From positions 1-9,854 of the forward strand of contig JAJRTK010000106.1 in assembly GCA_024278345.1 (NCBI GenBank): 9,854 nucleotides of DNA, in the 5' to 3' direction. The position numbers were made by a program, and so were the translations under genes. Position 1 is the first letter of the stretch. Each line of letters opens with the position of its first letter. Below, in pieces: positions 1 through 9,854 of the stretch. This stretch comes from a bacterium. Lineage in GTDB: Bacteria; CSSED10-310; JAJRTK01. The notes under the pieces were generated by a model. The model made no database searches, was not told the origin of the DNA, and worked only from the letters and a program-made list of their open reading frames with translations.

Positions 1-142
1 CGTAAGCGAGACGCGGCCCAAGGGGCCGCAGCGCAAGCTCCCAGCGGAGGTCCGGAGGCGGAGCCTCCGCCGGGTTCCAGGGCTGGAAGCCCCGGGGCGG
101 CGTCTGAAATCTGAACCGTGGCCGGTACCATGACCGAGGCCC
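1..142. repeat. Right part of a hairpin-rich intergenic element, cut by the window edge
   Basis: Bases 37-142 align without gaps to 7902-8007, with about 20 mismatches in 106 positions counted by eye. The segment holds a perfect hairpin GCGGCCC-AAG-GGGCCGC (13-29), a perfect hairpin CGGAGGC-GGA-GCCTCCG (53-69) and a nearly perfect one (77-95, loop GGA). Bases 118-142 correspond to the right terminal arm of the full element at 7802-8007. The matching left arm should lie just outside the window. The element ends 40 bases before the methyltransferase gene, so it may be in that gene's leader or be a terminator-like end of an upstream gene. No coding sequence is supported here. Confidence 0.75.
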
Positions 143-6504: not shown

Positions 6505-7398
6505 TTGTTCGGCCTCCCCTTCGCCGAACCCCGGGAATCGCCGGTTTCGTGCGACTTCTGCTTTTTCGGGGTCCCCTACGAAAAGGGGCGCACGGGCCTG
6601 CCTGGTGCCGCCGAGGCTCCCGACTCCCTCCGCGCCTACTCTGGTAACCTTCCCGCCCTGGTGAGTACGGAGACGGGCCGGAACCAGGGCTGGCTTGATT
6701 ACGATTTGGATCGGCCTCTCCTCCGAGATGCCCTGCTTATGGATGCTGGAAATATCCTATCGTTTCCCGGGGAACCCCCGGCCAAGGTTTTCCGCCGGGT
6801 CACGGAACTGCTGGAAGCAATTCTCCAGTCCGACGCCATCCCTGTAGCCATCGGTGGAGACCACAGCATTACCGCCCCCATCCTTCGCGGCTTTGGCAAG
6901 AATCGCCTCAAGGTGGTTCAGTTCGATGCCCACACGGATCTCGACAACCTGATTCCCGGAGGAGTCCTCCACCACGGGAATGTCATCCGTCGGGCCCTGG
7001 AGTTACCCAACGTGGAACAGGTTTTCTCCTTGGGCTTGCGAGGAATCACTCCCCTCCCGCAAAATTTCCAAGAGTGGGATTCTCCACGCCTCAGCGCAAG
7101 GCAGCTCCGGCAGGGTGGAGTTCAGGCGATGCTCGATCTTCTGGGAGAGCCGGGCCCCGTCTACGTGACCCTGGATCTGGACGTCCTGGACCCGGCCTAT
7201 CTTCCCGCCGTGGGCACGCCGGCGCCAGGCGGCCTTGATCCCGGATTGCTCAAGGAACTTCTCTGGAGCCTGGGTAGCTCAATGGAAGTGGTCGGTTTCG
7301 ACATAGTAGAACTCAGCCCCCGAGACCACGGTGTCACCAGCCTGGCCCTGGCCACGGAAATGCTCTTGACCCTGGCTGGCGCCATCTACGGAGGGTAA
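6505..7398 (+). CDS. speB: Agmatinase/arginase-family ureohydrolase
   Basis: A 297-residue binuclear manganese ureohydrolase. All six metal ligands of the family are present: His120 in GGDHS (117-121), Asp141, His143 and Asp145 in DAHTD (141-145), and Asp224 and Asp226 in DLDVLDP (224-230). The GTPAPGG loop follows at 237-243. The family splits a guanidinium group to urea plus an amine. Agmatinase (agmatine to putrescine) is the likeliest bacterial role, but arginase, guanidinobutyrase or formimidoylglutamase cannot be ruled out from motifs alone. The start is TTG at 6505: no ATG or GTG precedes it after the in-frame TAA of the upstream gene at 6469-6471, and the next ATG falls at about residue 77, inside the domain. 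No clear Shine-Dalgarno site is visible, so initiation may depend on coupling with the upstream gene. Confidence 0.9.
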   Translation: MFGLPFAEPRESPVSCDFCFFGVPYEKGRTGLPGAAEAPDSLRAYSGNLPALVSTETGRNQGWLDYDLDRPLLRDALLMDAGNILSFPGEPPAKVFRRVTELLEAILQSDAIPVAIGGDHSITAPILRGFGKNRLKVVQFDAHTDLDNLIPGGVLHHGNVIRRALELPNVEQVFSLGLRGITPLPQNFQEWDSPRLSARQLRQGGVQAMLDLLGEPGPVYVTLDLDVLDPAYLPAVGTPAPGGLDPGLLKELLWSLGSSMEVVGFDIVELSPRDHGVTSLALATEMLLTLAGAIYGG

Positions 7399-7499
7399 CT
7401 CGTTGCCTCGCTACGATCCGTGAGGAGAAATCCGGGTAGGGGGGCACTGAACACTCATGGAAATGAATCGAACCACCCCGTAGAATGAAAGAAAAGAGG

Positions 7500-7690
7500 C
7501 GTAGCGTACATAGATGTGGGTGGGGAACTCGTTGCTTTTCATTGCAACGGGTCCTTGCGAGCTCCCTGGTGGGTGCAGGGCAAAGCCCGATGCATGCTAC
7601 AATTTTCGGACGACCTTCGAGTCACGCAAACGTGACCCGCCGAGCGACAGCGAGAGCTGCCGAAGGCACCACCGATGACCGAGGCCGCCA
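7500..7690. repeat. Diverged relative of the snap-back element, in tandem with it
   Basis: Landmarks occur in the same order as in 7802-8007, at a nearly constant offset of about 314-343 bases: GTACATAGATG (7506-7516), GCTCCCTGG followed by TGGGT (7561-7574), and a right-arm-like ATGACCGAGGCC (7675-7686) that matches the window-start copy at 130-141. Hairpins differ in sequence but recur: CGTTGC/GCAACG (7530-7549), GGGC-AAA-GCCC (near 7580) and GTCACG-CAAA-CGTGAC (7621-7636). No left arm was found, so this copy is truncated or decayed. Confidence 0.5.
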
Positions 7691-7801
7691 CTCCCTCTCG
7701 CTACCAGAGAGCCCCCGGTTCCAGGAGAGCTTCCTCTTTCCTCCTTCAGCTTTCGGCAAGGCCGTTGGCGAGCAGCCGACGTGCTGGTGGATGCGGAGGC
7801 G

Positions 7802-8007
7802 GGGCCTCGTCCATCGTTTCGGCCACAAAAATACGACGCGGAGCGTCGTACATAAATGTACGTCCAGGGAGCTAGCTCCCTGGCGTGGGTCTGGGAGCAG
7901 CGCTCCCAGCGGAGGTTCGGAGGCGGAGCCTCCGCAGGGTTCCAGGGCCGGAGGCCCTGGCGCTGTGTCCGGATTTCGCAGCGTGGCCGAAACGATGGAC
8001 GAGGCCC
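7802..8007. repeat. Complete snap-back element: 25-bp terminal inverted repeats around a hairpin array
   Basis: Bases 7802-7826 and 7983-8007 are perfect 25-bp inverted repeats. The 156 bases between them form successive perfect short hairpins: 7832-7850 (8 bp, loop GGA), 7847-7862 (7 bp, loop AA, overlapping the previous one), 7864-7883 (9 bp, loop TA), 7891-7909 (8 bp, loop AGC), 7918-7934 (7 bp, loop GGA) and 7942-7960 (8 bp, loop GGA). CGCTG/CAGCG (7961-7983) adds a weaker seventh. As RNA or single-stranded DNA it would fold into a multi-branched cloverleaf closed by a long stem. No protein is encoded, and no target-site duplication was identified. Confidence 0.85.
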
Positions 8008-8024
8008 TGGATCGACGACAATTC

Positions 8025-8242: not shown

Positions 8243-8992
8243 TCACGGAAGGCAGATTCCCTTCCTGGAATGAGGATCATCCGCAAGTTTTTCGTGGGCC
8301 TCCCGTTCCGGAGTTCCCGCCTTGCCCCACGCCCGGTCCACGGCCTCACGGGCATCGTGATCTTCCAGGAACCGCACCGCAAGAGCCAGAAGATAGGGAT
8401 TCTTGCTCTCCCGGAGGATCTCCCTTTGCCCTTCCCAGAGCATTTCCGGGGCCACCGCCCGCATTCGTTCCTCCGTCCATGATCGAGCCTGTGTGATGGC
8501 CTCCAATAGCTCCGGATAGGCGGGGTTGAGGTCGGTAAACATCCCGGTTTCGTGCTCCACGCCGAAGAAGCCCGCCGGTTTCCCGGAATTCGATTTGCGG
8601 TAGAAGCCCAGTGTGCGAAGCCGCCCCTTTTCGTGGGCCTTCCACCAGCACGGAGAGCCCACGGAGAAAACCCAAATCCGTTCCGGAAGCCGCGGAGGCT
8701 CCTTGGGTTGTTCGAAATTGGCCAGCGTGCTCACCAGGCTGGCCGAAGCCAGAGCCTTGCGGAGCAGGCTATCGGGAAACGCATAACCCCGCCGGTCGTA
8801 ACTCTTGTTGGGCCAGTGGTCGGGAATCGCCTGGTCAAAGACGATTTCGTATTCCAATATCTGGTCTGAAAGGAAAACCTTGTCGCCTAAAGAGAGCCAC
8901 TCTCCGGCATTGGCCTCGCCACAAACAAAAGCGGTCAAAAGAACCACGCCCACAAGAGCGCGGAGCGGAATGAGGGGGAGCTTCATTCTCAT
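8243..8992 (-). CDS. Hypothetical secreted protein
   Basis: I do not recognise the 249-residue product. It opens with a classical Sec signal peptide: basic MRMK, a hydrophobic stretch at about residues 11-24, and an AxA site that predicts cleavage between Ala29 and Gly30 (ANA|GEW). The mature part of about 220 residues is soluble, with no further membrane segment. Its middle is rich in aromatic and basic residues (IWVFSVGSPCWW, FYRKSNSGKPAGFFGVEHETG), and the C-terminal third is helical and charged (WTEERMRAVAPEMLWEGQ onward). This suggests a periplasmic or exported protein of unknown role. ATG 8992 has AAGGAG eight bases upstream (9006-9001), an excellent ribosome site, so it is preferred over the second ATG six bases later. 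It is transcribed towards the repeat region, and a dispersed repeat lies about 95 bases upstream. Confidence 0.8.
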   Translation of the reverse strand: MRMKLPLIPLRALVGVVLLTAFVCGEANAGEWLSLGDKVFLSDQILEYEIVFDQAIPDHWPNKSYDRRGYAFPDSLLRKALASASLVSTLANFEQPKEPPRLPERIWVFSVGSPCWWKAHEKGRLRTLGFYRKSNSGKPAGFFGVEHETGMFTDLNPAYPELLEAITQARSWTEERMRAVAPEMLWEGQREILRESKNPYLLALAVRFLEDHDAREAVDRAWGKAGTPEREAHEKLADDPHSRKGICLP

Positions 8993-9193: not shown

Positions 9194-9556
9194 CTACTGA
9201 GCGTATGGATTTCGAATCCAAGTCCCGCGGCGGTACAGCGTGAGAACTATCAGTAGCACCACAAGCATCCACCACCAAGTTGGCGTCAAGATGGGAGTCA
9301 GCGTTGCGATGGGTGTTTCGGTTGCCGTAGGCGTGGGCGGGGATGTTGGCGTCAAGGTGGGAGTCAGCGTTACCGTGGGGGTGGATGTCGATGTCAAGGT
9401 GGGAGTCGGCGTCACCGTCGGTGTCTCGGCTGCCGTAGGCGTGGGGGTGGATGTCGATGTCAAGGCGGGAGTCGGCGTCACCGTGGGCGTCACCGTGGGG
9501 GTGAGTGTGGGGGAAGGAGCTACCGTGTTGGAACTGACCTCGGCTCGGCACCACAT
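9194..9556 (-). CDS. Thr/Pro-rich stalk protein with C-terminal membrane anchor, possibly a fragment
   Basis: From ATG 9556 the product is 120 residues. Residues 14-93 are almost purely Thr-Pro repeats with Ser, Val, Leu and Ala ([11 protein letters not shown] type), a pattern seen in extended, often glycosylated cell-wall stalks. Then comes WWW, a hydrophobic helix (about 97-108, [12 protein letters not shown]) and a basic tail starting RRG. This order (stalk, helix, positive tail) is that of C-terminal surface anchors. No signal peptide or folded N-terminal domain precedes it, so it may be the remaining end of a longer surface protein cut off by the repeats at 9600-9854. The frame stays open upstream, but the 83-bp repeats there have a stop in one of the three frames and cannot be coding throughout. 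The ribosome site at 9556 is weak (AGGAAA immediately upstream). Confidence 0.5.
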
Positions 9557-9577
9557 TTTCCTTTTTTTTCCTGTTCT

Positions 9578-9595
9578 GTCCCGCCTTGCGTGGAT
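9578..9595 (+). repeat. 18-base exact repeat, copy 2
   Basis: Identical to 8025-8042 in the same orientation. It lies between the Thr/Pro protein start and the hairpin at 9613. Confidence 0.7.
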
Positions 9596-9612
9596 GCCCC
9601 CCGGCAAGAAGC

Positions 9613-9638
9613 GGGTGCGGGCCGGAAGGCCCGCACCC
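9613..9638. other. 11-bp perfect hairpin with a GGAA loop
   Basis: GGGTGCGGGCC (9613-9623), GGAA (9624-9627) and GGCCCGCACCC (9628-9638) form an 11-bp GC-rich perfect stem. On the + strand the loop is a GNRA tetraloop; on the minus strand it is TTCC. No T-run follows on either strand, so it is not a typical rho-independent terminator. Confidence 0.75.
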
Positions 9639-9652
9639 AAAATCCGTTCCCC

Positions 9653-9854
9653 ATCCGTCCCATTCCCGGGAGTAAAACTCCACCCAACGCCCGTGGAACA
9701 CCTTTTCAGCCACCCGGGAAGGCATCCCGCGGCTGATCCGTCCCATTCCCGGGAGTAAAACTCCACCCAACGCCCGTGGAACACCTTTTCAGCCACCCGG
9801 GAAGGCATCCCGCGGCTGATCCGTCCCATTCCCGGGAGTAAAACTCCACCCAAC
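9653..9854. repeat. 83-bp tandem repeat running off the window
   Basis: Units begin at 9653 and 9736, with a third partial one at 9819-9854; full units appear identical. Each holds two small stems, GGAGT-AAA-ACTCC (9669-9681 in unit 1) and CGGGA-AGGCA-TCCCG (9715-9729). The period of 83 is not a multiple of three and one minus-strand frame has a TGA, so coding through three or more units is not possible. The array continues past the window end. Confidence 0.9.

Follow-up and report, generated by a model that had tools for sequence, protein, structure and literature searches.

The window, i.e., the whole 9,854-nucleotide stretch analyzed here, contains a 204-bp element that we read, with a probability of about 0.93, as a non-autonomous, MITE-type DNA transposon with fixed ends and a swappable palindromic interior. 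The first-pass annotation had put forward a non-autonomous mobile element, a structured RNA and a DNA cruciform site as options, and the first of these was strongly supported because of the high copy number, the target-site duplications and the conservation of the terminal inverted repeats (TIRs). The family combines the defining features of a MITE, i.e., short length without a transposase gene, TIRs, a target-site duplication and multiple dispersed copies.

Architecture and fold of the window element

The longest inverted repeat of the region is perfect and 25 nt long (7802–7826 and 7983–8007), as the first-pass annotation had described. We set the element boundaries from target-site duplications at other copies, which refined them to 7803–8006 and gave a 24-bp TIR. 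The following features were assigned in the window:

7803–8006, plus strand: full-length MITE copy of subfamily A, 204 bp, aligned end to end with copies L002 and L003 (97–98%) and about 25 full copies
7803–7826, plus strand: left TIR, GGCCTCGTCCATCGTTTCGGCCAC, a perfect inverted repeat; the same TIR is present in other genomes
7832–7850, plus strand: hairpin H1, loop GGA, 8-bp stem, subfamily A only; a T run comes after it on the minus strand, giving a terminator-like site at 7851–7831
7864–7883, plus strand: hairpin H2, variable 2-nt loop, 99.6% of cells paired
7891–7909, plus strand: hairpin H3, 99.0% paired, both sides changed in three pairs
7919–7933, plus strand: hairpin H4, loop GGA, 98.7% paired
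7942–7960, plus strand: hairpin H5, loop GGA, 96.4% paired; closing pair C-G changed to T-A between subfamilies; loop inverted in L003 (TCC for GGA)
7983–8006, minus strand: right TIR, a perfect inverted repeat with the left TIR
37–141, plus strand: second copy, from subfamily B, reduced to its right half and located at the contig edge; 96% identity to positions 97–201 of the subfamily B query, minus-strand TIR at 132
7478–7691, plus strand: probable third relative, a decayed mosaic with uncertain left boundary and end GAGCTGCCGAAGGCACCACCGATGACCGAGGCC; right end as in the mosaic copy L012 and in L133, 7500–7570 resembling L136

The element is intergenic and lies between two converging genes, an arginase-family gene (6505–7398, plus strand) and a hypothetical ORF (8243–8992, minus strand). 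At the contig end, positions 9194–9853 (minus strand) hold an ORF in which a long Thr/Pro repeat of low complexity is accompanied by other repeated segments. Within the element, a GTACAT-AA-ATGTAC hairpin overlaps H1, and a weaker last stem follows H5. We confirmed the series of short hairpins, in which H1, H4 and H5 share the GGA loop; the fold goes far beyond that of shuffled sequences on both strands. For positions 7790–8020, the MFE was −153.7 kcal/mol on the plus strand (z −11.1) and −139.4 kcal/mol on the minus strand (z −12.2), values reached by 0/200 shuffles in either case; the interior folded alone still had a z of −6.7.

This extreme fold on both strands, together with stems that are conserved and partly compensated, would fit a structured non-coding RNA, i.e., a riboregulator or small RNA that is kept for its fold and only incidentally multicopy. 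We consider this very improbable, given that the fold is equally strong on both strands, that target duplications are present and that no consistent promoter was found in the window. Moreover, Rfam gave no match at the gathering score and one chance-level match (E 0.81) at relaxed thresholds, and the same ends occur with unrelated interiors. With interiors replaced freely and ends kept, the structured RNA named in the first-pass annotation was not supported as the primary nature of the element.

The window copy is situated downstream of the minus-strand ORF 8243–8992. Transcripts of this ORF could end at the predicted terminator-like site 7851–7831, because H1 is followed there by a T run and a run of at least four A is kept at this place in 42 of the 50 copies with a left TIR. 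The family might thus act as an intergenic terminator module, SPRITE-like, that spreads or is retained via a benefit to the host, a role compatible with, and additional to, a MITE origin. We regard this role as unlikely, since the T run is missing from subfamily A2 and the interiors differ greatly; orientation relative to neighboring genes was considered for the window copy only.

Copy number and target-site duplications in the host genome

The host genome is a 6.06-Mb draft of 550 contigs (88% complete). The inner TIR matched it 330 times (171 + 159) with at most one mismatch, compared with 0 + 1 matches for the reversed control. Hairpin H3 was found 162 + 158 times, with symmetrical loops scoring on both strands, i.e., at least 160 hairpins are present. 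The family has well over a hundred copies in the host genome; a single copy, which the first-pass annotation had considered as evidence against its proposal, was not what we found. When TIR-centered regions were fetched, 18/20 reached a contig end, and we therefore conclude that the family itself breaks the assembly. Element lengths of 201–204 bp are below the MITE limit of about 600 bp, and a transposase reading frame cannot fit. The family end sequence is GGCCTYGKYCATCGTTTCGGCCA, with GGCC at the element ends. We distinguished two main subfamilies, A (TIR ...CATCGTTTCGGCCAC, including the window copy) and B (...CATGGTACCGGCCAC), and intermediates exist. Another short palindromic repeat, CCCGTTGC...GCAACGGG, is dispersed in the host genome in or beside MITE copies (L017, flanks of L057, L111, end of L242; window 7525–7551).

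Transposition was shown by direct repeats flanking 19 of the 25 bounded copies, compared with 0.15% expected at random positions that were scored by the same rule, i.e., with nine boundary offsets per copy. These repeats are 7–11 bp long, mostly 8–9 bp, and flush with the GGCC ends, as exemplified by AAAACCAG, GATTTAAC and GGGCTCGGT. Copy count and flank comparison, two of the checks named in the first-pass annotation, both spoke for a mobile element. L003 had inserted into a TIR of another element and produced a 9-bp duplication. The window copy (7803–8006) has no intact target-site duplication; it is therefore probably older, or its flank was altered. One left-truncated copy of 98 bp (L120 603–700, G000:C370) lies in frame and without stops within the Ala/Pro-rich linker of an E2-like protein with a lipoyl domain. 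It is flanked by the 9-bp repeat AAACCAGAG, and the effect is similar to that of Rickettsia palindromic elements.

Conserved hairpins and exchanged interiors

We analyzed base pairing over 25 full copies, in which 90% of cells were paired and 13 pairs had changed on both sides (8.1 in shuffles). The covariation score was 0.139 compared with 0.073 in shuffles, of which 0/500 reached the observed value, and slid structures scored at most 0.043. The 24-bp TIR was paired in 94.7% of cells and H2–H5 in 96–99.6%; over 96 full and partial copies, 1.6–6.1% of H2–H5 cells were unpaired. In contrast, H1 was paired in only 42.6% of cells and hence rejected as a family-wide stem; it is retained in subfamily A only. 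Stem compensation, whose absence the first-pass annotation had named as evidence against its proposal, held for most stems and failed for H1. H2–H5 and the TIR are family-wide, whereas the GTACAT hairpin and the 8-bp stem of H1 occur only in the window copy or its subfamily. In our reading of the alignment, a similar A run is followed in subfamily B and others by a shorter hairpin in place of H1. Double changes were located mostly in the TIR, followed by H3 and H5. Those in the TIR can reflect shared recognition, as both ends must match one enzyme, and in part shared ancestry of the subfamilies. H2 loops occur as reverse-complement pairs (TG/CA and AC/GT), which together with the GGA to TCC change of the H5 loop in L003 suggests that hairpins are occasionally inverted.

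Outside the host, only G003, from the same phylum, gave matches among 60 other genomes, mainly covering the TIR. G003 is apparently identical to the assembly recorded as Schekmanbacteria JACPHN; the interior of its element (L034) consists of other hairpins, and the repeat measures 10 bp. The TIR also matched a genome of another phylum, MAG Yes70-08 (G060), 414 times (219 + 195) with up to three mismatches, with 0 matches for the control. A further genome of that phylum, G072, had 20 matches at no more than one mismatch. Elements in G060 and G072 are about 100–400 bp long, have 8–9 bp duplications and enclose quite different palindromes. Taken over both phyla, the same TIR and 8–9 bp duplications bound elements with unrelated interiors in the host genome, in its relative G061 (same phylum) and in G060 and G072, in a list of non-main elements that was partly selected on those duplications. 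Searches with the TIR yielded no credible TIR pairs in viral contigs and only weak, chance-level matches in plasmids. Cyanobium matches to the TIR pattern were set aside because they look like unpaired matches inside genes.

We folded the interiors of 36 elements without their TIRs and obtained a median z of −4.65, with 78% below −3, in a set that was chosen by TIR pairs and is not independent, since several interiors are mutually related. Equally long flanks had a median z of −0.46 and 0/29 below −3. Some copies are mosaics. L012 combines a left part from the window family with a right end of a different type and has its duplication CAAACTCA intact. L107, L109, L111, L113, L119 and L136 have the right half in common and carry other hairpins at the places of H2 and H3, which indicates that hairpin slots are exchanged. 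A 1.1-kb TIR pair in G060 was rejected as an autonomous element, as it consists of two MITEs flanking one gene. These same-TIR MITEs (L222 319–1421, G060:C276) form a possible composite arrangement around a pgsA-like gene, which from our ORF reading looks like a CDP-alcohol phosphatidyltransferase.

Mobilization and relation to known elements

An autonomous element with these ends was not found in searches with DDE_Tnp_1, IS1595, Transposase_mut and Y1, with contigs breaking at repeats. DDE_Tnp_1 gave one match only, an unlinked fragment; Transposase_mut was absent from the host genome and gave a single weak fragment in G060. IS1595 was rejected as mobilizer: IS1595-type copies of the host end in GGCTCTATATGCGATCC and their shared end reads GGCTCTATATGCGATCCAGGG, unlike the MITE TIR. 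Two IS1595-type transposase genes (L242 and L243) share the end GGCTCTATATGCGATCCAGGGATCTAGA and are perhaps a separate IS family of the host genome. The autonomous partner may have been lost, may be on an uncollected contig or may belong to a transposase family outside those searched.

High-copy palindromic units could also be a REP/REPIN-type array mobilized by a Y1 (RAYT) transposase, and Y1 transposases are present in G061. We give this reading hardly any credence. REPINs and REPs have a RAYT partner and are not known to make target duplications, and flush 8–9 bp duplications and perfect 24-bp TIRs are not among the known features of REPINs. In the host genome, Y1 gave a below-cutoff match only, so no Y1 is linked to palindromes there. 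REPINs and GTAG/CGTC-tagged REPs are high-copy palindromic repeats (PMC3116915, PMC3733652); the window family is likewise high-copy and palindromic but differs by its TIR and duplication.

For the MITE-type transposon that we favor instead, we propose that a transposase acting in trans would recognize the 24-bp TIRs and that insertion makes the observed duplications, with an enzyme probably from a family that generates 8–9 bp duplications. Between the fixed ends, the interior is a replaceable palindrome array, so that a transcript or single strand of any copy snaps back. New subfamilies, whose states are seen in the copies, may have arisen by point change, hairpin-loop inversion, one-end exchange and added palindromes. 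Interior hairpins probably persist as tolerated, transcriptionally quiet filler or as intergenic terminators.

BOX elements have a boxA-B-C order, and foldback elements such as Galileo and Tm1 snap back and have variable interiors. No boxA-B-C order was seen in the window family, and no sequence shared with BOX or SPRITE is claimed; pneumococcal BOX is modular and SPRITE terminator-like (PMC3049150; PMC10969869). Unlike the window family, Galileo and Tm1 are eukaryotic and of other transposase families (PMC4168063, PMC3169594). QMITE2 of Coxiella burnetii has TIRs of 23–29 bp, direct repeats of 7–9 bp, a core of 113–145 bp and a predicted transcript fold of about −113; it hence resembles our family in TIR length, direct-repeat size and a strongly folded core (PMC10969869). 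It differs in that the window family is GC-rich, has an interior of separate hairpins in an array and uses one TIR around many unrelated interiors across two phyla. The first-pass annotation had called the element more structured than simple MITEs; the strong fold stood, whereas the contrast was too strong, as QMITE2-like MITEs have folded cores. Correia/NEMIS, ERIC/RU-1 and RUP are under about 200 bp and have TIRs, target duplications and stable stem-loops, but mostly have 5'-TA-3' ends, are A+T-rich and form a single long stem, in contrast to the GGCC ends and 8–9 bp duplications found here (PMC2229807).

We found no description of the family in the open-licence literature searched, and within this limited literature the combination of one TIR in two phyla with interchangeable hairpin interiors is apparently undescribed. 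Tentatively, we consider it possible that two candidate phyla share one transposase-recognized end pair, which carries palindromic cassettes that can be interchanged, with an interior selected for folding and not for sequence. Folding might serve as shielding, i.e., termination without read-through, or a folded strand might aid transposition of the element or help it to survive replication. For genome work, these elements fragment draft assemblies, with contigs stopping inside copies. The ends of a miniature transposon stayed constant across phyla while its cargo was replaced by ever-different hairpins, which makes the family a natural test of whether selection acts on the secondary structure of a non-coding transposon or such structure is merely tolerated.
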